A DNA stretch of 26,362 nucleotides, taken from IMG/VR virus record IMGVR_UViG_3300031576_000257, positions 1 to 26,362 of that record. The stretch is one strand, 5' to 3'. The notes beneath the pieces are model-generated. The model had not been told where the DNA came from. It saw nothing but the letters and a program-made list of their open reading frames with translations, and did not search any database. This stretch comes from a virus. A program made the position numbers and the translations under genes. Positions 1,938 to 25,702 of the stretch are shown one piece after another (position 1 is the first letter of the stretch; every line of letters starts with the position of its first letter).

Positions 1938-4723
1938 AGCTCAGGCACTCCCCAGTAATGCTGCCAGCGGTCGCGCAGCCCGGTGATCTTCTCGGCCCAG
2001 GTGTCTCCCTCCGAGGTGAAGAGGTCCATCCAGGTCAGAGCCGGCTCCAAGCCGCGCTGCGGAGCGCCGATGCTGCGGACGGTGAGCACCCGACGCTCGG
2101 CGTTGATCGGCGAGGTCTGGATGTCCTCGACCTCGCAGACCACATTGCGAAAGACGTTCGGCGCCGCCGCGAAGGCGACTCGGACGACGGAGCCCTGGGT
2201 CAGGCCGAAGGACCGCCACGCCGTCTCGAAGACGAAGCGCGTGCGCGCGAACGCCTGCCGGTCCGCGACGAAGTCCGCCAGGTCCTGAGCTTGAACCTCG
2301 CCCGTGTAGGCGACGCCCGACGGGATGAAGGACAGGTCGTGGATCGCCCACGCGAGGACCGGGCCCTCTGAATCGTAGCGAGGCCCGAAGACGTCGCTGC
2401 TCTCGTCGGAGCGCCCGATCAGGTAGCGCTGGAACCGCTCGGGCACATCCGCGCGAGCGTCGATGTGCCAAGCTCGCGCCCAGTAGACCTCGACCCGGTT
2501 GATGATGGCCGAGGGCGAGGTCCGCTCGATGAGCGGGCTGCCCGGCGCCTGGGAGACGTTCGGATTCGGCGTGCCCGGGAGGCGGAAGCTCGCCTCGACG
2601 TGGGCCTGCTCGGCCTCGGCCGTGTCGGGGATGACGATGAGCTGGTGACCCGCCGGCCCCCAGAAGGCGTGGCTGCGGCACTGGAGAGCGAGCTGCCGTT
2701 CCAGGTCCGGCCAGGCGAGCGGCTCCGTGATCGCGAAGTTGAACCGGAGGTCCCGCGCTCGATACTCCGCGGTGGCCGCCTCGTAGCTGGCCATGTTGAT
2801 GAAGTCGGAGTAGGCACCCGAGGCCGAGTCGAAGTTGCCCCCGTCCTCCAGGTACTTCTTCTGGAGGTTCGCGAAGACGGACGAGGGCCACGCCACGTTC
2901 TTCTGGAACGGGAAGGCGCCCTCGTGGTCGCCGAGCGGGACGGAGAACCAGGGCGAGTCCCAGAAGCCGACGCCGCCGATGCCGCCGGCCGTCTCGCCGT
3001 TGTCGAGCTTGCAGAGGATTCCGCGGATGGGCTGCATGTCGAAGCCCACGTCCTCCGCGCTGGTCAGGGTGATGTCGGCATCCGCGTCCACGTCCGTGAC
3101 GCGGTCCACCGTCAGGTCCGCCTCCAGCTCGTGTTCCCACGAGACCTCGTAGACGATTCCGCCGCCCGCCGTCTGGGCGTTGAACGACACGCTCTGGTTG
3201 AAGGGCTGCGGCGTCCCGAGCGGGATGGTGTAGGAGTCCTTCGAGGCCGAGGTCGGGTGGAAGAATTGGGTCAGTCCGCCGTCGCCCACGATGATGTCGC
3301 CCTGCGAGGTGAAGCGCAGAGTCGAGCGGATCGTGTCGCCGTTCGAAAAGGTCCCGCCCGGGACGTTCGGGAAGGTGAAGGTCACCCCGCCGAAGGCGCC
3401 GAGCGAGTAGCCGGTGTTCAGCGAGCCGTCGAAGGCCGCCGCCGCGGGACTCGGGCCGCTCGGATAATTCTGCTTCGTCGCCTGGACCGTCGAGACGCTC
3501 GGCGAGAACTCCGGCTGCTGGGTGATGATGATGTCATCGTTCACCACCTCCGCGCCGGTGCTCGGGAGGTTGAGGCGCGGGATGAGCACGGGCGGCTGGC
3601 CCGGCGGATCGGAGGACCCGTCATCGAACAGACGGAAGAGAGTCCAGACGCCCCAGGGCGCGGCAGGGTCCGTGATGTCGATGACGCTCGCGTTCTCCAG
3701 CCGCTCGAAGGCGAACGGGATGATCCGGCCGTCGAAGGTCCAGAGCGCCATCGCCGTGATGCCCGAGAATTGCGAGGGCCCGGCGCCGGAGTCGAGGCAC
3801 GGGTTCGCGCTCGGAAGGAAGCGATACTCCGTCATGCGCTGCTGGACGACGGCGCCCTGCGGGACGTTGAAGTCCACCAGCGCACCGAATTCGAGCCGCC
3901 ACGGAACCGTCGAGCCCGGGACCACGCGCTGGTCCGTGACACCGGAGACGGTCAGAAGCTTGTCGAGCCGGTGGAGATAGACCTGCTGGCCGACGAGGCC
4001 CGAGACCTGCTCGGGGCCGAAGTCCGTCTGGAACTCGATGCCCGAGACGGTGCCCGAGAGCAGCGGCCGGGCCGTGAAGCCGTAGACCCCGGCGTCCACC
4101 CGGACCATCTGCACCCAGGAGTCGGGCGACCCGATGACGATCGGGATCACGCGGCCCTCGTCGGCCGGGTCGAGGTTCGGCCAATCGACGCGCTCGGCTC
4201 GCTTGAAGTTGAGCGTCTGCCGACGGAGTGAGTCGCGCGGATAGAGCGGCAGCCGGAAGCCGTCCTGCTGCACCTCCTGCGGGGAACCGAATTGCCCGTT
4301 CTTCCGGATGGGCGTCCAGTCCGCCGGGACCAGGTCCTCGGGCGTCTGCCCCGGCTTGAGATAGCCGACGAAGAGCGTGGCGGTGCTGCCCTCCCAGGCG
4401 TAGTCCTCGTCCACGATCGCCGCGAGAAGCGAGTCCGCGTGGCGGAAGGGGAGATTCCGGACCGGGATGCCGACGGGGTGGCCGGGCGTCTCCTCGCCGA
4501 GCTTGAACGCCAGCTCTTCCTCGATGACCGCGGGCGGGCCCAGGAAGGCTTCGTACAGGTCGCTGCTCGGGCCGCCCGAGAAGGTCCGGGTGGCCCAGCG
4601 GATGGGCGCGTTCGGTAGTCCGTTGACCCGCGAGAGGAGCGTCCCGGAGAGCGCGTACACCGCTCCGTGGAGAGCGTTGCGCTGGGTCGCGTCCTGCTGG
4701 GCGGGGGTGATTTCCAGGCTCAT
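1934..4723 (-). CDS. large tail hub / tip protein (929 aa)
   Basis: I chose the ATG at 4723, read as MSLEITPAQQD, because it overlaps the upstream stop as ATGA; an upstream start adding nine residues is possible but sits inside the previous gene. By size and position after the distal tail gene this should be the central hub or tip of the tail. The C-terminal third (EYRARDLRFNFAITEP, INRVEVYWARAW, GSVVRVAFAAAPNVFRNVVC) resembles hub proteins that form ring domains. A middle stretch near residue 420 (AAAAFDGSLNTGYSLG) resembles a discoidin-like beta-sandwich insertion. Hub status rests on context and general resemblance; receptor contact is inferred. Confidence 0.7.
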   Translation of the reverse strand: MSLEITPAQQDATQRNALHGAVYALSGTLLSRVNGLPNAPIRWATRTFSGGPSSDLYEAFLGPPAVIEEELAFKLGEETPGHPVGIPVRNLPFRHADSLLAAIVDEDYAWEGSTATLFVGYLKPGQTPEDLVPADWTPIRKNGQFGSPQEVQQDGFRLPLYPRDSLRRQTLNFKRAERVDWPNLDPADEGRVIPIVIGSPDSWVQMVRVDAGVYGFTARPLLSGTVSGIEFQTDFGPEQVSGLVGQQVYLHRLDKLLTVSGVTDQRVVPGSTVPWRLEFGALVDFNVPQGAVVQQRMTEYRFLPSANPCLDSGAGPSQFSGITAMALWTFDGRIIPFAFERLENASVIDITDPAAPWGVWTLFRLFDDGSSDPPGQPPVLIPRLNLPSTGAEVVNDDIIITQQPEFSPSVSTVQATKQNYPSGPSPAAAAFDGSLNTGYSLGAFGGVTFTFPNVPGGTFSNGDTIRSTLRFTSQGDIIVGDGGLTQFFHPTSASKDSYTIPLGTPQPFNQSVSFNAQTAGGGIVYEVSWEHELEADLTVDRVTDVDADADITLTSAEDVGFDMQPIRGILCKLDNGETAGGIGGVGFWDSPWFSVPLGDHEGAFPFQKNVAWPSSVFANLQKKYLEDGGNFDSASGAYSDFINMASYEAATAEYRARDLRFNFAITEPLAWPDLERQLALQCRSHAFWGPAGHQLIVIPDTAEAEQAHVEASFRLPGTPNPNVSQAPGSPLIERTSPSAIINRVEVYWARAWHIDARADVPERFQRYLIGRSDESSDVFGPRYDSEGPVLAWAIHDLSFIPSGVAYTGEVQAQDLADFVADRQAFARTRFVFETAWRSFGLTQGSVVRVAFAAAPNVFRNVVCEVEDIQTSPINAERRVLTVRSIGAPQRGLEPALTWMDLFTSEGDTWAEKITGLRDRWQHYWGVPEL

Positions 4724-5478
4724 TCGTCCGGGATCTCCTGGACGAGGCACGGGAAGTTGTAGAGCCCGGCCTGGTCATCGAACGTATACTCGGGCTCGGG
4801 CATCTCCGCCCAGTAGCTCTCGCCGAGGTCGTCCGCGAACCAGAAGGGCTCGCCGCCGTCGTTCTCGCGGAGGAAGTCGATGAAGGGCCGGACCTCGTCC
4901 TCGGGCACGACCAGGTTGAAGCTCACCCGGTTCAGCTCCTCGCCGTACCGGATGCGGAACGGCGCGCCGCCCGGGATGGCGATCCGCTGGGTCTGCTGGA
5001 TGACGGAGCGGTCCACTCCGGCGATCGGGCGATTCGGGAAGGGCAGGACCTTCGCCAGCATCGCCTCGTAGATCACCGGCGTCGCCAGGCCCGATACCGT
5101 CCCCGAGACCGTGACGCGCCAGACCCGCCGCGCCGTCGCCGCCCCCGAGAGGGTGACAACGAACGGGGTGTCCGAGACCGGCGAGACCTCCGCGTGCTGC
5201 GCCGAGTTGCTGCCATTGACGTCCTCCGAGATGATGCGGAAGACGTGACCGGAGAGGCTCGTCCCCTTCACCAGGACGAAGGCTTCTCGCGTCGCGGCGT
5301 CCCCCAGAGTCAGCTTGGCTTCGCCCTGCAGGACGCCCGAGACGGTGCCCGAGACCACCGGCCACGGGAGCGAGACGTCCGAGTCCGCGATGCGGCGGAC
5401 GGGGAACGCCTCGTCGGTGTTCGTGCCCGAGAGCACGCCGAGGGCCAGGAGATTGGAGAAGTGGATGACGGGGATCAT
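4720..5478 (-). CDS. distal tail-like protein (252 aa)
   Basis: The start overlaps the tape-measure stop as TGATG and the end overlaps the hub gene as ATGA, so translation is probably coupled. It lies exactly where siphoviruses carry the distal tail protein that links tube and hub. The N-terminal half is beta-rich and holds seven Ser-Gly dipeptides, including two VSGTVSG blocks. The C-terminal half has RVSFNLVVPEDEVRPFIDFL and GGEPFWFADDLGESYWAEM, which look like a galectin-like distal-tail domain. No catalytic motif is seen. Function is inferred mainly from order. Confidence 0.6.
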   Translation of the reverse strand: MIPVIHFSNLLALGVLSGTNTDEAFPVRRIADSDVSLPWPVVSGTVSGVLQGEAKLTLGDAATREAFVLVKGTSLSGHVFRIISEDVNGSNSAQHAEVSPVSDTPFVVTLSGAATARRVWRVTVSGTVSGLATPVIYEAMLAKVLPFPNRPIAGVDRSVIQQTQRIAIPGGAPFRIRYGEELNRVSFNLVVPEDEVRPFIDFLRENDGGEPFWFADDLGESYWAEMPEPEYTFDDQAGLYNFPCLVQEIPDE

Positions 5479-7259
5479 CAGTAGGTCCTGGGGTTATACT
5501 GGATGTCCGGCGGGAGGATGCCGAAGCGCCGAGCCTCGGCGATGCGCTCCCGGACGATCCGATTTCGAGTGGTCGGGTCCACGACGCCCTGGGCGTTCAG
5601 CTCGCTCAGGACGGTCGCGGTGAATTCGGCCACCGCGCGGTCCACCGCGGCCTGAGCCTGAGAGGTCACGCCGTCCGCGTAGGCGCGCGCCGCGTTGACG
5701 CCCGCGGCGCCCACGTAGACGTTTTGCCCGCCGCCAGAGACGCGCGCGAGAGAGGCGATAGCCTGGTTCGCGAGACCGACCGCCGCGAAGGGGTCGGAGA
5801 AGTCGAGGCTCTGGCTGGAGACCACCGTTCGACTCGCGGACAGGGAGGCGATCTGATTGGAGGCCGAGGCCGCCGCCGCTCCGGCCGCCGCGGCCGAAGC
5901 CGCCGCGTCCGAGTAGCTGTCCGCCAGGTCATCGGCCGCGCCGGCCGCCTGGTTCGTCGCGTTCGTGACGTCGTTGACGTTGCCCGCGGTCTGGTCCACG
6001 GCCGCCGCCGCGTTCTTCCAGAGGTCCACCAGTCGCTGGGCTGCGCCCGCCGCTCCGCCCCCGGCCGCCGCCGCGACCTCGCGGATGGTGGCCGCGGTCG
6101 AGTCGGCTTCCTTCCGCGCGAGCCCGAAGCGGTCCGCGACGATCCCCACCTGGGTGGCGAGCGAGGCACCGCTGTCCTGGGCCTGCTCGATCTGAATCGT
6201 GAGCGAGGCCGCTTCCGTCGCGGCCTTCTTCGACTCGGCCGCCGCGGCGCGGAGATTGTCTGCGAGCTTCTGGGTCTGCTCGGCCGCCGCGAAGTTGCCC
6301 GTCGCCGCATTCAGGACGGTGAAGACATCGTTGATGGCGGCGAAGGCGGTCTGGATGCCAGCCGCCACCGCGTGATAGGTGGACTCGATGCGCGAGGCGA
6401 GCGAGAGAGCCAGCTCGAAGCCGCCGCGGATGGCCGCCGCCGCGGCCGTCGCCGCCTGCGTCAGGATCTCGAAGCCGACGCCCTGCCCGATCCGGTCGGT
6501 GATCTCGTCGAGGGCGGTCTGGATCTCCGTGATCAGCGGGCCAAAGGCATCGTTGAACGCCTTGCCCAGGAGCTGCAGGAAGTCCTCGATGCTCCCGCGG
6601 AGCCGGTCGAGTCGGCCCAGGAACGTGTTGCCGAGCGCCTCGGCCTGGCCCTCCGTCGCCTCGGCCGCCGCGCGGAACGCGCCGCCGGCCTTGAGCTGCT
6701 CCGTCGTGAGCTGCTTGACCTGGGGGAGGTAGCGCGCGATGGCACCCGCGTTGCCCTGGAGGGTCCGGCCGAAGAGTCGCGCGGCAGTCTCGGCGTCCTG
6801 GCCCGTGGCTGCGGCGAAGTCGAGTACGACCTTCGTGGCCGGTCGGAGCTGCTCGGCCGCGACGCCCACCGTCGCGAGCATCTTGGCGACGCCGACCGTG
6901 GTGTCGTCCTGGACGCCCGTGGTCCGCTGGAGGGCCGTGGCATACGCCTCGACCTCGGACACGATCCGCTTGAAGCCGGGGACACCCTGCGCCTGCAGGA
7001 TATTGGAGAGACCGGCCACCCGCTTCTCGTAGTCGCCCTGGGCCTTCGAGCCTACCAGGGTGGCGGCCGTCAGCCCGGCGACGCCCGCCGCAGCGGCGCC
7101 GAGCGCGGCCGTGAGGCCGCCGGTGATCACGCCAAAGGCCGCCGGGCCCGCCTTCCCGAGGAAGCTCCCCAGCGCGGTCTTGGCGCCGTCGAGCGCCTTC
7201 GACCACCCGGAGACATCCAGGGAGAGCTTGCCTTCGGCGGTCCCGGCGTCGAACGGCAT
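5478..7259 (-). CDS. tail tape measure protein (593 aa)
   Basis: A long Ala-rich, mostly helical protein after the tail chaperone, in the standard position for the tape measure that sets tail length and leads DNA exit. The ATG follows AGGAGGAGAGCC. A hydrophobic stretch lies near residues 38-72 (PAAFGVITGGLTAALG and following), then helical segments such as AEQLRPATKVVLDFAAATGQ. A long coiled-coil, Ala-rich region spans about 330-490. Near the common ratio of 1.5 angstroms per residue, 593 residues would give a fairly short tail of about 90 nm; this is an estimate. Confidence 0.88.
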   Translation of the reverse strand: MPFDAGTAEGKLSLDVSGWSKALDGAKTALGSFLGKAGPAAFGVITGGLTAALGAAAAGVAGLTAATLVGSKAQGDYEKRVAGLSNILQAQGVPGFKRIVSEVEAYATALQRTTGVQDDTTVGVAKMLATVGVAAEQLRPATKVVLDFAAATGQDAETAARLFGRTLQGNAGAIARYLPQVKQLTTEQLKAGGAFRAAAEATEGQAEALGNTFLGRLDRLRGSIEDFLQLLGKAFNDAFGPLITEIQTALDEITDRIGQGVGFEILTQAATAAAAAIRGGFELALSLASRIESTYHAVAAGIQTAFAAINDVFTVLNAATGNFAAAEQTQKLADNLRAAAAESKKAATEAASLTIQIEQAQDSGASLATQVGIVADRFGLARKEADSTAATIREVAAAAGGGAAGAAQRLVDLWKNAAAAVDQTAGNVNDVTNATNQAAGAADDLADSYSDAAASAAAAGAAAASASNQIASLSASRTVVSSQSLDFSDPFAAVGLANQAIASLARVSGGGQNVYVGAAGVNAARAYADGVTSQAQAAVDRAVAEFTATVLSELNAQGVVDPTTRNRIVRERIAEARRFGILPPDIQYNPRTY

Positions 7260-7269
7260 GGCTCTCCTC

Positions 7270-7533
7270 CTATCGGGCGCGGCGGCGGACGCGCGCCTGT
7301 TGGCGGCGCGCCTGCCCGGCCTTGTGCTTGGCCGCGACCATCGCCTTCACCCGCTTGGCGATCAGCTCGTCCAGCGGGTCGGTCTTGTCCGGGTCGGTCA
7401 CGTCGAGCATGCCCGCCAGGAGGAAGTAGAACTCCGGGACCGGCATCCGCCGCAGGTCGTCGAGGCGATACTGCGGGAAGAAATGGAGGAACCGCGCGAC
7501 GAGGCCGCGCGAATAGTCCCCCTTCTTACGCCG
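7270..7533 (-). CDS. tail assembly chaperone frameshift extension (no start codon of its own)
   Basis: This 87-codon frame ends with TAG at 7272-7270, ten bases before the tape-measure start. It begins RRKKGDYSRGLVARFLHFF, contains RRMPVPEFYFLLAG, and ends in a basic helix, AGQARRQQARVRRRAR. It is the +1 frame of the preceding gene. Between its upstream in-frame TGA (about 7560) and the conserved-looking part there is no ATG, GTG or TTG. Reading it needs a shift near CGG-UUU-UCG, where tRNA-Phe can slip from UUU to the next UUU. This matches the G/GT chaperone arrangement of siphoviruses. The fusion would be about 239 residues. A sequencing indel is the main alternative. Confidence 0.75.
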   Translation of the reverse strand, partial: RRKKGDYSRGLVARFLHFFPQYRLDDLRRMPVPEFYFLLAGMLDVTDPDKTDPLDELIAKRVKAMVAAKHKAGQARRQQARVRRRAR

Positions 7534-7990
7534 AAAACCGAAGGACGCTGACCCGCTTCAGGACCTCCGTGACCGCGCGGAAGAGCGCGACCTCCTCGCC
7601 CAGCTCCCACGGCGGGGCCGGGAAGGTGGGGCAGAGGATGCGGATGAGGTCCGGGAGCTTCGAGAGCAGGCGGCCGGTGAACGTCTCGTTCGACTCGTCC
7701 TTCTGCTTCTCCAGGCTCGACCCGTCGAGGGTGAGCGCGCCGAAGACGCTGAGCGCCGTGGCGCCGAGGGTGTACCGCTCGCCGCGGAAGACCACCACCA
7801 CGGGCTTGTAGTCCGTGCGCGCGGCGTCGAGGTCGATCACGTCTGCGACCTGGATGGGCTTGCCACCCGGGGTCTCTTCGGTCGTCGGGGTCTGGATGGG
7901 CTTGCCACCCGGGGTCTCTTCGGTCGTCGGGGTCTGGATGGGCTTGCCACCCGGGGTCTCTTCGGTCGTCGGGGTCTGGGGGTCCGTCAT
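7526..7990 (-). CDS. tail assembly chaperone, upstream (G-like) product
   Basis: A 154-residue protein just upstream of the tape measure. The ATG follows AGGAGA. The first 47 residues are MTDPQ plus three exact copies of TPTTEETPGGKPIQ, an acidic, Pro/Thr-rich low-complexity arm. From VADVIDLD onward it has the character of gpG-type tail chaperones: a beta hairpin (YKPVVVVFRGERYTLGA), then helices ending in FRAVTEVLKRVSVLRFSA. Its TAA lies two codons after a UUU-U run, beyond which the +1 frame continues. Its role is to coat or prepare the tape measure during tail assembly. Confidence 0.8.
   Translation of the reverse strand: MTDPQTPTTEETPGGKPIQTPTTEETPGGKPIQTPTTEETPGGKPIQVADVIDLDAARTDYKPVVVVFRGERYTLGATALSVFGALTLDGSSLEKQKDESNETFTGRLLSKLPDLIRILCPTFPAPPWELGEEVALFRAVTEVLKRVSVLRFSA
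7534..7537 (-). promoter_or_regulatory. candidate +1 programmed frameshift site (UUU-U)
   Basis: On the coding strand the zero frame reads CTT CGG TTT TCG GCG TAA. Moving one base forward at TTT-T lets the Phe tRNA pair again with TTT, and reading continues as CGG CGT AAG AAG into the downstream frame. A -2 shift would reach the same frame but would put the tRNA on GGT, a poor match. The nearby stop may add a pause. The slip site is inferred from sequence only. Confidence 0.5.
7850..7975 (-). repeat. three exact tandem copies of a 42-bp unit inside the chaperone gene
   Basis: Copies lie at 7850-7891, 7892-7933 and 7934-7975 and are identical to the base, with a short partial fourth at 7976-7979. 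The unit is 14 codons long, so copy number can change without breaking the frame. It encodes TPTTEETPGGKPIQ. Perfect identity suggests recent expansion. Confidence 0.95.
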
Positions 7991-8008: not shown

Positions 8009-8260
8009 CTAGATTGCCGGCTTCTGCAGGGCTACGAGGATCCGGCCGAGCACGCCGCGGAATCCGTAGAGGACTCCGCCGCCGCCAGCCATCTGCACCA
8101 GGTCGAGCAGTCGCTGCCAGTCTACGAGGCCGAGGCAGCTCTGCGCGTCCGCCATGAAGCCGGGCCCGACCACGCCGAGCGCCCCCAGCGCTTGCACGCC
8201 GAGGACGACCGCGAGGCCGCGAGTGACCCAGGACTTCGAAGTGGGCTTGTCGGGAAGCAT
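8009..8260 (-). CDS. small membrane protein, possible holin-like
   Basis: An 83-residue protein with two apolar segments. Residues about 13-34 read VTRGLAVVLGVQALGALGVVGP and a Gly-rich second one lies near 58-75 (GGGGVLYGFRGVLGRILVAL). The start DKPTSKSWVTRGLAVV resembles small phage holin-type proteins with an SKT[IV]W motif before the first membrane helix. It sits alone between two structural genes, downstream of a long hairpin. No endolysin is seen beside it, so the lysis role is tentative; a membrane or virion-associated role is equally possible. Confidence 0.45.
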   Translation of the reverse strand: MLPDKPTSKSWVTRGLAVVLGVQALGALGVVGPGFMADAQSCLGLVDWQRLLDLVQMAGGGGVLYGFRGVLGRILVALQKPAI

Positions 8261-8339: not shown

Positions 8340-8867
8340 TCAGGCGGGAGGATGCGACCCGCTGAGCACGTAGAAGGGCGTCTCCACCCCCGACACCGTC
8401 GAGTTGAAGGCGGTGAAGGTGGCCAGCCACGCCTGCTGGGCCTCCTCGCTCAGCGTCAGCTCGTCCAGCTCCGTCGCGACCGCGGCCGGGAAGACGAAGG
8501 TGGCGGAGCCGTCGCGGGCGACCAGGCGCAGCTCGTCCGCGTGGTCGAGGTAGTCGTCACCGGGCTGGCTCTTCGGCAGCACGATCGCGCCGGAGAGGGC
8601 GCCGCTGGTGATGAGCGCCTCGGCGAAGGGCATGAGGACGCCGGACATGGTCGGGAGGCCGAGCGTGTCCGCGACCGGGACGCCGATCGTCACGGTCTCG
8701 CCGCGTCGGAGGATCCGGACGGGGTTGAAGTTGCCCTCGTCGTTCGCGGTGAGCGCGAGGACCTCGGGCGCGATGGACAGGGCGATCTCGCCGAACACGC
8801 GGACGGCGGAACCCCCGTAGTAGACGTCCGCGGACAATCCGTGGACGGTGTCGGTGGGAAAGGGCAT
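8340..8867 (-). CDS. major tail tube protein candidate (175 aa)
   Basis: It follows the tail terminator gene and precedes the chaperones, the usual position of the tail tube subunit. The sequence is beta-rich with one helix-like segment: VHGLSADVYYGGSAVRVFGE, ALTANDEGNFNPVRILRRGE, then a C-terminal TLSEEAQQAWLATFTAFN and a final strand FYVLSGSHPPA. A GAGGTAA ribosome site overlaps the upstream stop. The following hairpin would suit a highly expressed gene. Assignment is by order and size rather than a diagnostic motif. Confidence 0.65.
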   Translation of the reverse strand: MPFPTDTVHGLSADVYYGGSAVRVFGEIALSIAPEVLALTANDEGNFNPVRILRRGETVTIGVPVADTLGLPTMSGVLMPFAEALITSGALSGAIVLPKSQPGDDYLDHADELRLVARDGSATFVFPAAVATELDELTLSEEAQQAWLATFTAFNSTVSGVETPFYVLSGSHPPA

Positions 8868-11195: not shown

Positions 11196-12200
11196 TCAGC
11201 CGTTCGTCCGGAGACGGGCGAGCTTCACCTGCTTGCGCTCGGCGAAGACCCGGTTCCAGTTGACGCCCGACGCCAGCTCGGCGTAGGTCGCCGCCTCGCC
11301 GGCCATCGAGGCACCCAGCCACGCGAAGCCGCGCGGGTGGATGAGGTGCTGCTGCCGCGACACGAGGATCTCCGTGCCGCCGCCGTTGCCCTGCAGCTCC
11401 TCGCGCTGCACCGCCACCGGGACTCGCGGCTCCGCCGTGCCGTAGGCGAGTGCCCCGGCGCCGAACAGATACGAGTCGTAGACGGTGTGGCCCGAGATCG
11501 TGGCCGTCGGCATGCCGTCGTCCACGATGACGCGCCGACCCAGGAAGGTCGGGATCTGCGTCTCCCCGCGCGAGTCCGGGATGAACTCGATCAGGTTGTT
11601 CACCTGGGCCTGCGTGAAGACCATGCTGTGCATCGCGATGGCCGTGACCTCGTCGGCCCGGTCGCCGAGGGTGGCAGCCGCCTGCAGGAACGCCGGAGCG
11701 TTGAAGCGGTTGTCGTCGGTCACCGTGCCGCTGAGCGAGACGATCGACTCCGTCATGTCGCCGGAATCGTTCGCGTCGTTGTCCGCGAAGAGGCCCTGCA
11801 GCGTGCGGATCACGCGCGTCTGGAGGACGCGCGACCAGTAGGACGACACGCGCTGGGCGATGGCGTCCATCGGGTCGTCGCCGGCCAGAGCCGTGACGAG
11901 ATCCGCGGCCTTCCAGGCCTGGTTCACGTTGTGGCGCTGCGCGACTTCCTCGCCCGTGCCGAGCTTCTTCGGAATCGCGCTGTTCTCGCTGTCGTCCGAG
12001 ACGTTCGGCTCGTCGTTCGCGAGGTCGCGCCAGTGCGGGATCGAGAAGGTGCGCCCGCCACCCTGGAGCAGGGAGTTGAAGAACTCCCCCGTCTCCATGA
12101 TGCCGGACTGGACGAACGCCGTCTTCTCCGTGGTCAGCACCTGCACGTAGGGTGCGAAGACCTCCGGAATCACGACGTCCGTGAGCTGGACCAGAGCCAT
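11196..12200 (-). CDS. major capsid protein (334 aa)
   Basis: This is the expected gene after the scaffold candidate. The ATG has a strong AAAGGAG site and an AT-rich leader, unusual here and consistent with high expression. The sequence matches the style of phage major coat proteins: MALVQLTDVVIPEVFAPYVQ, a flexible DEPNVSDDSENSAIPKK loop, VSSYWSRVLQTRVIRTLQGLF (spine-like helix), then IAMHSMVFTQAQVNNLIEFI and GRRVIVDDGMP, which is a common motif before the final strands. It probably adopts the HK97 fold. A hairpin follows immediately. Confidence 0.88.
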   Translation of the reverse strand: MALVQLTDVVIPEVFAPYVQVLTTEKTAFVQSGIMETGEFFNSLLQGGGRTFSIPHWRDLANDEPNVSDDSENSAIPKKLGTGEEVAQRHNVNQAWKAADLVTALAGDDPMDAIAQRVSSYWSRVLQTRVIRTLQGLFADNDANDSGDMTESIVSLSGTVTDDNRFNAPAFLQAAATLGDRADEVTAIAMHSMVFTQAQVNNLIEFIPDSRGETQIPTFLGRRVIVDDGMPTATISGHTVYDSYLFGAGALAYGTAEPRVPVAVQREELQGNGGGTEILVSRQQHLIHPRGFAWLGASMAGEAATYAELASGVNWNRVFAERKQVKLARLRTNG

Positions 12201-14753: not shown

Positions 14754-16361
14754 CTAGCTCAACCCCTTCGCGCGTCCGGAACGCGCCTTCGCCGGCTTGG
14801 GAGCGAACGTCACGACGAGACCGTCCGCGTGGTCCGGAGACGCGACCCCGCGAGCCTTCATCTGCGTCTTGCGCTCGATGGCGATCTTCCCGGTCTCGGT
14901 GAACGAATACTTCGGGAGCGAGAGCTGCCCGCACACCTTCGGGTCGTCCGGAAGCAGGAGCAGCTCGTCGAGATCGTAGAGGCGCCCGCCCTTGCCCTGC
15001 ACCGCCAGCCAGTGTTCGTGGGTTCGGAAGAGGCGCTCGCGCGCCGTCCACCATGCCTCGGCGCGCGCGTTGATGAACTTCTTGGAGGCGGGCTTCCCGT
15101 CGGGCCAGACCTTGCCCGAAGGCCGGTTGCCCACGTTGATCGGGATGCAGCGGAGGTCGCCCGCGATGCGGAGGAGAGTGGACAGGACGCCGCGGCCGAC
15201 GCCGACGGAGTCGAATTTCACCTTCGTGATCCGGTGCTGCGCCGCGAGCGCGCAGGTCCGACCGGCCGTGTTCGTGGTGTCGCCGTCCATCCAGTCCGTG
15301 GACTTGTAGACGACGGGGCCCTTCCGCGGGACGAACACGCTGGGCGCCTGTCCGCCGCCGACGTCCAGGCCCGCCTCGAAGACGACGTCCTCGGCCTGCT
15401 GCAGCCACTTCGCCAGCTCGCCGTTCGCTTCGAGGTGCTTGCGGAGGAGCTGCGAGGAGAGGACCCACTTCCCCGGGATCGCGACGTCGCCCGCGCTCGC
15501 CTCGTAGTCGAGATCAATCTCCTGGGCGAGAATCTCGGGCGTCAGCTCTCGCTGCTTGGCTTCGTACCAGGCGAGATCCTTGCGCGGGTCCGAGGTCCAG
15601 TGGAAGGTGAAGACCTTGACGGCGCCGCTCATCTTGCGCCGATAGAACGGGTTTCCCGTCCCCTTCGGCGTCGAGATGTCGATTCGCACGTCGGTCGTGT
15701 TGGAGAGCGCGGCCTCGACCTGCTCGGGCTGGTCGAGCGAGGCGGCCTCGTCCACGAAGTAGATGGAAGCGCGGTCGCCGCGGCCGATATCTGAGCCGCC
15801 GTCGCCGGTGATCACGGCCCCCGTCTCCGGGTTCCGGATCCTCATGTAGCGAGCGTGGTCCTTCTCGCTCCAGCCGATGGGCTGGAGGGCGCGAGGGAGG
15901 CGCCGGATGATGATCCGGACCTTCTCCAGCAGCGACTTCGGGACGCCCAGGGTGTCCACGTCGTCGAGGGACTGCGAGCCGAACCCGATGGCGATGCCCG
16001 GCGTGAAGATCCACTGCCGAACGGACCAGGCCGTGGAGAGCCAGGTCACGCCCGCGTCGCGGGACTTCTCGACCAGGCCGTGCTCGCGCCCGCTGAATCG
16101 CTCGTCCAGCCAGTCGAGGTACTCGCGCTGGCGCGGGAAGAGGACGAAGGGGACGAACGGGTCCTTCCCCTGGTTGACGTACCGGGGCTCATACGTGAAG
16201 ACCCAGTCCTCGACGAATTCGGCCGAGGGCGCGGATCGGTAGTACGCGATCAGCCGGTCCCAGTCCTCCGGCTCGCGGAGTCGGTCGAGGAGGTTCCGCC
16301 GATAGCGGAAGATCGGCGCGTAGTCCGGGCTCTTCCAGTCCAGCGGGTGCGGGGTTCCCAT
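14754..16361 (-). CDS. terL: terminase large subunit (535 aa)
   Basis: ATP-driven DNA packaging motor and nuclease. The ATPase shows the Walker A region EKSRDAGVTW at residues 98-107, Walker B SIYFVDEAA with D204-E205, and the coupling motif STPKG at 230-234. The nuclease domain shows GLDVGGG with D333, VKFDSVGVG with D384 and the late SPDHADG with D510 and D513. Length is normal for the family. The start lies soon after the upstream TAG with no strong ribosome site, so it may be translationally coupled. The call is secure; the packaging type (cos or headful) cannot be told here. Confidence 0.95.
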   Translation of the reverse strand: MGTPHPLDWKSPDYAPIFRYRRNLLDRLREPEDWDRLIAYYRSAPSAEFVEDWVFTYEPRYVNQGKDPFVPFVLFPRQREYLDWLDERFSGREHGLVEKSRDAGVTWLSTAWSVRQWIFTPGIAIGFGSQSLDDVDTLGVPKSLLEKVRIIIRRLPRALQPIGWSEKDHARYMRIRNPETGAVITGDGGSDIGRGDRASIYFVDEAASLDQPEQVEAALSNTTDVRIDISTPKGTGNPFYRRKMSGAVKVFTFHWTSDPRKDLAWYEAKQRELTPEILAQEIDLDYEASAGDVAIPGKWVLSSQLLRKHLEANGELAKWLQQAEDVVFEAGLDVGGGQAPSVFVPRKGPVVYKSTDWMDGDTTNTAGRTCALAAQHRITKVKFDSVGVGRGVLSTLLRIAGDLRCIPINVGNRPSGKVWPDGKPASKKFINARAEAWWTARERLFRTHEHWLAVQGKGGRLYDLDELLLLPDDPKVCGQLSLPKYSFTETGKIAIERKTQMKARGVASPDHADGLVVTFAPKPAKARSGRAKGLS

Positions 16362-23866: not shown

Positions 23867-23941
23867 TGGAGCCCGAGGAGGGATTCGAACCCCCACCCTG
23901 CTGAGTACGAAACAGCCGCTCTGCTTTGGAGCTACTCGGGC
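23867..23941 (-). tRNA. tRNA-Thr(CGU) with an atypical D-loop
   Basis: 75 bases on the minus strand, with CCA encoded. The acceptor pairs perfectly (GCCCGAG with CTCGGGC), the D-stem is GCTC/GAGC, the anticodon loop is TTCGTAC giving anticodon CGU for ACG, and the T-arm GGGGG-TTCGAAT-CCCTC is normal. The anticodon loop differs from E. coli tRNA-Thr(CGU) only at its last base, and G1-C72 and C2-G71 fit Thr identity. The D-loop CAAAGCA lacks the usual GG, and the last anticodon-stem pair is T-T. It begins one base before the upstream gene's stop codon. Confidence 0.85.
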
Positions 23942-25616: not shown

Positions 25617-25672
25617 CATGTGTGAGCATGCTCACACATGCACGCACATGTGTGAGCATGCTCACACATGTG
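25617..25672. repeat. two 24-bp perfect palindromes repeated at a 30-bp interval
   Basis: Palindromes at 25617-25640 and 25647-25670 share the same sequence, half-site CATGTGTGAGCA followed by its reverse complement. The second extends to 28 bp (25645-25672). Spacing of 30 bp is close to three helical turns. Such an arrangement suits dimeric or tetrameric protein binding. Confidence 0.95.
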
Positions 25673-25702
25673 TGCCCGCACGTATGCACATGCGGGCACA
25701 CA
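25669..25702. repeat. 12-bp inverted repeat with a 10-base loop
   Basis: Arms 25669-25680 and 25691-25702 pair perfectly (TGTGTGCCCGCA with TGCGGGCACACA), overlapping the end of the preceding palindrome. Could form a hairpin or a protein site. Confidence 0.9.

Follow-up and report, generated by a model that had tools for sequence, protein, structure and literature searches.

The sequence studied was the 26,362-base virus record IMGVR_UViG_3300031576_000257 of IMG/VR, an uncultured viral contig, which was analyzed over its whole length and is referred to below as the window. The element in question is a putative tail assembly chaperone gene followed by a conserved frame that has no start codon, the two being very probably expressed together by +1 ribosomal frameshifting. 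The genes of the chaperone region are all located on the minus strand. They comprise, in coding order, a tail tube protein gene (8340..8867, 175 residues), a small open reading frame (ORF; 8009..8260), the putative gpG-like chaperone gene ORF1 (7526..7990, 154 residues, stop codon TAA at 7528-7526), the startless frame (open over 7557-7270, stop codon included), and a tape measure protein gene (5478..7259, ATG at 7259, 593 residues).

The 3' end of ORF1 reads GTC CTT CGG TTT TCG GCG TAA, with the TTT at 7537-7535, and the startless frame, offset by one base from this zero frame, contains GGT TTT CGG CGT AAG AAG. Upstream, the +1 frame is bounded by a TGA at 7560-7558. Counted from the junction, the putative gpT-like extension (7270..7533) consists of 87 codons (7533-7273) and a TAG (7272-7270), directly ahead of the tape measure gene. 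From the TGA to the conserved core, the +1 frame contains no ATG, GTG, TTG, CTG, or ATH codon; the first candidate start is a CTG located 27 codons past the junction, within the conserved part. The original prediction for this locus had given the last five codons of ORF1 (CGG TTT TCG GCG TAA), an 87-codon extension in the +1 frame, its opening at a TGA near 7560, the absence of ATG, GTG, and TTG ahead of the conserved part, and the position next to the tape measure gene. This description was correct in every detail, and CTG and ATH could be added to the missing starts. A single four-base step at the tetramer TTTT (7534..7537), from the zero-frame TTT to the re-paired TTT at 7536-7534, joins both parts into one open frame with a predicted fusion protein of 239 residues (7273..7990, junction ...VLRF-RRKKGDY...).

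IMG/VR was scanned with the extension and the tail tube protein, and three further contigs covering the region were retrieved: L002 (3300021090_000096), L003 (3300009610_000120), and L006 (3300037246_001186). One more contig (L005/L009) stops just past the tail tube gene. All three have the gene order of the window, namely tail tube, chaperone, startless extension, and tape measure. The identities to the window for L002, L003, and L006 were 46%, 63%, and 41% for the extension, 57%, 64%, and 53% for the tail tube protein, and 41%, 40%, and 31% for ORF1, respectively. The clearly coding character that had been ascribed to the extension was thus confirmed by 41-63% identity of the +1 frame in three other contigs. 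When the window and L003 were compared in all frames, amino acid identity reached 70% in the +1 frame versus 38% and 36% in the other two, both of which bear stop codons; this excess, together with the stops, indicates that the +1 frame is truly coding and under selection. None of the three contigs has a homologous start codon for the second part. In the window, L002, and L003, a distance of 7 codons separates the upstream TGA from the shift, and the zero-frame stop follows 2-4 sense codons after the TTT. In L006, the zero frame continues for 30 codons beyond the site (3992-4084), so that about 90 nucleotides are read in two frames. No match was obtained in cultured phages by tblastn with the extension and with the tail tube protein, in plasmids, or in viral scans that used the tape measure protein or the chaperone as a single-sequence query, and no relative was confirmed by scans of genome contigs.

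The ORF1 ends of the four phages (the window and the three contigs) align without gaps on TExxxxxxxxxF, and the same aligned Phe codon is TTT followed by a pyrimidine (Y) in 4/4, with varying adjacent codons: CGG TTT TCG in the window, CGC TTT CAC in L002, GAC TTT CAG in L003, and TCC TTT CGC in L006. The original prediction had proposed to look for conservation of TTTT and of the frame offset in related phages. The offset was retained in all three relatives; the TTTT was not, since they carry TTTC, and the conserved element is therefore UUU-Y. Elsewhere, TTT accounts for 8/251 Phe codons in the window (3%), 4/46 in L002, 1/46 in L003, and 13/49 in L006. Multiplying the smoothed TTT-Y frequencies gives 1.4e-6, under an assumption of independence between the phages that holds only in part. 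In each of the four phages, the junction is the only in-frame TTTY within the gene, and both parts merge into one open fusion if TTTY is decoded as a four-base Phe codon.

A script evaluated all codons between the upstream +1-frame stop and the downstream zero-frame stop for re-pairing after a +1 or −2 shift. TTT was the sole codon common to the four overlaps whose transfer RNA (tRNA) can re-pair at +1, and the sole perfectly re-pairing +1 codon in the overlaps of the window, L002, and L003, in line with the suggestion that a slip on TTT-T keeps tRNA-Phe paired. Slippage from CGG_U to GGU would give an identical peptide but requires mismatched pairing. The UUU followed by C or U, with re-pairing of tRNA-Phe, corresponds in all four phages to the UUU_Y type of site known from influenza PA-X; the narrower UUU_CGN motif is present only in L006 (CGC), and the following codons of the window (UCG), L002 (CAC), and L003 (CAG) do not fit it.

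Four other explanations of the offset were weighed, and the alignment of TTT-Y, its rarity, and the restriction of re-pairing to +1 make each of them unlikely. The extension might be a separate gene, translated from its own, perhaps non-standard, start codon or by re-initiation after the ORF1 stop. This is very improbable: a +1-frame TTG is found 5 codons before the shift in both L003 and L006, but inspection of the sequences showed no Shine-Dalgarno element at the normal distance from these TTGs, and ATG, GTG, and TTG are all missing there in the window and L002, the window being also free of CTG and ATH up to the CTG in the conserved part. A net +1 offset may also result from a −2 shift, for which the gpGT of phage Mu is a known case (PMC3498833) and which frame analysis by itself cannot separate from +1. 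The chance of such a shift here is slighter still, because the overlaps of the window and L003 contain no codon able to re-pair at −2, L002 has one by wobble only, and none is common to the four. A sequencing or assembly indel, or a truly broken gene, could be suspected in an uncultured viral contig, but the frame breaks to +1 at this very codon in three other contigs as well, and this, combined with the lack of a homologous start, makes a read error hardly conceivable. Slippage of RNA polymerase yielding mixed messenger RNA can likewise be practically dismissed, since only the window has a run of four T, its relatives have three T and then C, and known transcriptional slippage sites are much longer runs.

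The identities of the flanking genes were evaluated using structural models and profile searches. Nearly all top structural matches of the tail tube model (predicted local distance difference test score of 47, low confidence) were tail tube or Hcp proteins, including those of Sf11, R4C, and YSD1 and lambda V (Z 7.4-9.1). The tape measure protein gave weak profile matches to PHROG 991 and TMP_2, the latter below its cut-off, and its gene adjoins the extension in the relatives too. The ORF1 model consists of a beta hairpin followed by helices, and a Foldseek search of BFVD placed tail assembly chaperones among the best matches, with a probability of up to 0.99, though with E values of about 0.03 at best. 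The ORF1 and tail tube models were built on shallow alignments of four sequences and have modest confidence. The chaperone identity of ORF1 rests mainly on gene order and on the frameshifted layout: as in a gpG/gpGT-type pair, two ORFs lie between the tail tube and tape measure genes, the second of them being out of frame, overlapping, startless, and conserved at the protein level.

The two frames are best read as one gene encoding a lambda gpG/gpGT-like pair of tail assembly chaperones produced by +1 frameshifting at UUU_Y, and a probability of about 0.92 is assigned to this reading on the basis of sequence comparison. From the observed frames, gene order, and conservation, we infer the slippage itself, its rate, and the function of each product as follows. 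Most ribosomes would terminate at the TAA and release the short chaperone of 154 residues. In a minority, the P-site tRNA-Phe on UUU would slip forward by one base to the overlapping UUU (UUC in the relatives), and these ribosomes would continue in the +1 frame to give the 239-residue fusion. Such a slip of tRNA-Phe has been argued for influenza PA-X to be favored because UUC pairs better than UUU (PMC3498833). If lambda is a guide, binding of the tape measure protein may fall to the N-terminal part that both products share and recruitment of tail tube subunits to the C-terminal extension, both parts presumably departing before the tail is completed.

Several observations weigh against this reading. 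The zero-frame A-site codons (UCG, CAC, CAG, and CGC) are all sense codons, none being a stop, and they are not rare, with 11-39 occurrences per thousand in the genes of the window. No Shine-Dalgarno-like element at the distance seen in prfB is shared by the four phages; together with the ordinary A-site codons, this means that no element raising the rate of shifting was identified. Bare in-frame TTT-Y occurs at six other places in the genes of the window, so the tetramer by itself would be expected to shift only slightly. The sites of the four phages are also not fully independent, as the phages are related to one another. Moreover, neither ORF1 nor the extension has a family match in sequence searches (for ORF1, Pfam and PHROGs included), and ORF1 matches BFVD only weakly, with a best E of 0.029, and reaches a Z score of at most 3.6 against the PDB.

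A strong GGAGGT lies about 25 nucleotides upstream of the site in the window, L002, and L003, where it codes for the conserved TEV; this is too far for an effect of the prfB kind. L006 alone has a Shine-Dalgarno-like GGGAGG near the site. An RNA hairpin directly 3' of the shift site is possible in the window (7475..7532), L002, and L003, with z values of −2.4, −2.2, and −1.9, respectively; it pairs in different registers among the three, without consistent covariation, and is absent in L006.

The 5' part of ORF1 includes a perfect 42-bp tandem repeat in 3.1 copies (7850..7979, minus strand) that codes for the N-terminal repeats TPTTEETPGGKPIQ of the chaperone; such TPTTEETPGGKPIQ repeats are carried by none of the relatives L002, L003, and L006. 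The small ORF at 8009..8260 encodes a partly hydrophobic product without a family match and is common only to the window and L003 (2347-2658), in both cases after the tail tube gene. Outside the tail region, a tRNA-Thr (CGT) gene was found on the minus strand of the window at 23867-23941, and an imperfect 20-bp tandem repeat rich in CA/TG at 25637-25674, near the end of the record. The capsid and terminase genes are located at 11196-12200 and 14754-16361. The major capsid protein of the window is about 45% identical to those of Chi-like siphophages, and the terminase matches other phages at about 35-38%; among the tail relatives, the L003 contig alone shares both. This pattern suggests module exchange, though the contigs may be fragments. 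Chi-like siphophages were considered as relatives and set aside, their tail gene tables showing chaperone ORFs of other sizes and layouts. Another contig, L022, was reached through a tape measure alignment. It encodes a weakly similar tape measure protein and an unrelated chaperone pair (3158-4011) with an offset of −1 at a run of nine A (GAA GAA GAA AAA AAA AGC CCA TAA), which yields the frame KKPISFLEYFFWKTMEH... upstream of an ATG at 3619; it has no bearing on the +1 site.

Fewer natural sites are supported by comparison for +1 shifts than for −1 shifts. Here, the exact codon is better supported by comparison than one genome could allow: the alignment of four divergent phages is enough to pin the candidate site to a single codon, and this speaks for UUU_Y as a motif that tailed phages can use. 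The four also form a small test set for the efficiency of shifting where the A-site codon is neither a stop nor rare, and they point to a tail chaperone family to which neither Pfam nor PHROGs has a match.

Long-tailed phages generally have frameshifted tail chaperones, mostly with a −1 shift and with a probable +1 shift in HSTV-2 (PMC5009743, PMC3498833). In actinophage data, PRFect gave 350 forward versus 2368 backward candidate sites, and there is no agreed general +1 motif (PMC10885494). The view in the original prediction that a +1 shift at UUU-U would be less usual is fair, +1 being the minority direction, but UUU_C sites are established elsewhere. Like lambda gpG/gpGT (Xu, Hendrix and Duda 2004, reviewed in PMC5009743), the pair described here precedes the tape measure gene and consists of a short chaperone with a frameshifted extension near its 3' end; unlike it, the putative shift is +1 on a tetramer instead of −1 on a heptamer, and no sequence similarity was found between the two. 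P-site slippage by +1 is also known in bacteria at CUU_UGA of prfB and at CCC_UGA of the tsh gene of Listeria phages PSA, A118, and A500 (PMC5009743). The predicted slippage is of the same bacterial type, but the A site holds a stop codon in those cases and a sense codon in all four phages. In influenza A PA-X, a UUU_C site was proven by mass spectrometry at UCC_UUU_CGU (PMC3498833). The slip of P-site tRNA-Phe from UUU to UUC is alike, and L006 has UCC_UUU_CGC; PA-X differs in its eukaryotic ribosomes and unrelated gene, the present site being a predicted one.

The closest counterpart is the HF1 group of haloviruses, whose first chaperone ORF has a conserved TTT-CGC close to its stop; a study of 2020 independently proposed a +1 shift there (PMC7230728), so that the present case belongs to a known type, a UUU_Y-like +1 shift in tail chaperones having already been proposed for archaeal viruses. 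The HF1 record has AAG TTT CGC AGA TAG at this place, with an extension open in the +1 frame. Both sets have two small ORFs between the tail tube and tape measure genes, a +1 offset, and a genomically rare TTT; TTT-C lies three codons ahead of the zero-frame stop in the HF1 group, as does the TTT in the window. The HF1 group differs in its haloarchaeal hosts, the motif here being UUU_Y with TCG, CAC, CAG, or CGC after the TTT, and it has no detectable sequence homology to the present set. Since searches revealed no such relation, the site was apparently taken up on more than one occasion. As a tentative generalization, UUU_Y ahead of an ordinary A-site sense codon might be a recurrent minimal +1 signal, possibly aided by a hairpin within a few bases 3' of it. 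Tailed viruses of bacteria and of archaea would have taken up this signal separately for their tail chaperones, and it would have escaped notice because annotation tools seek −1 heptamers or +1 shifts at stop or rare codons.
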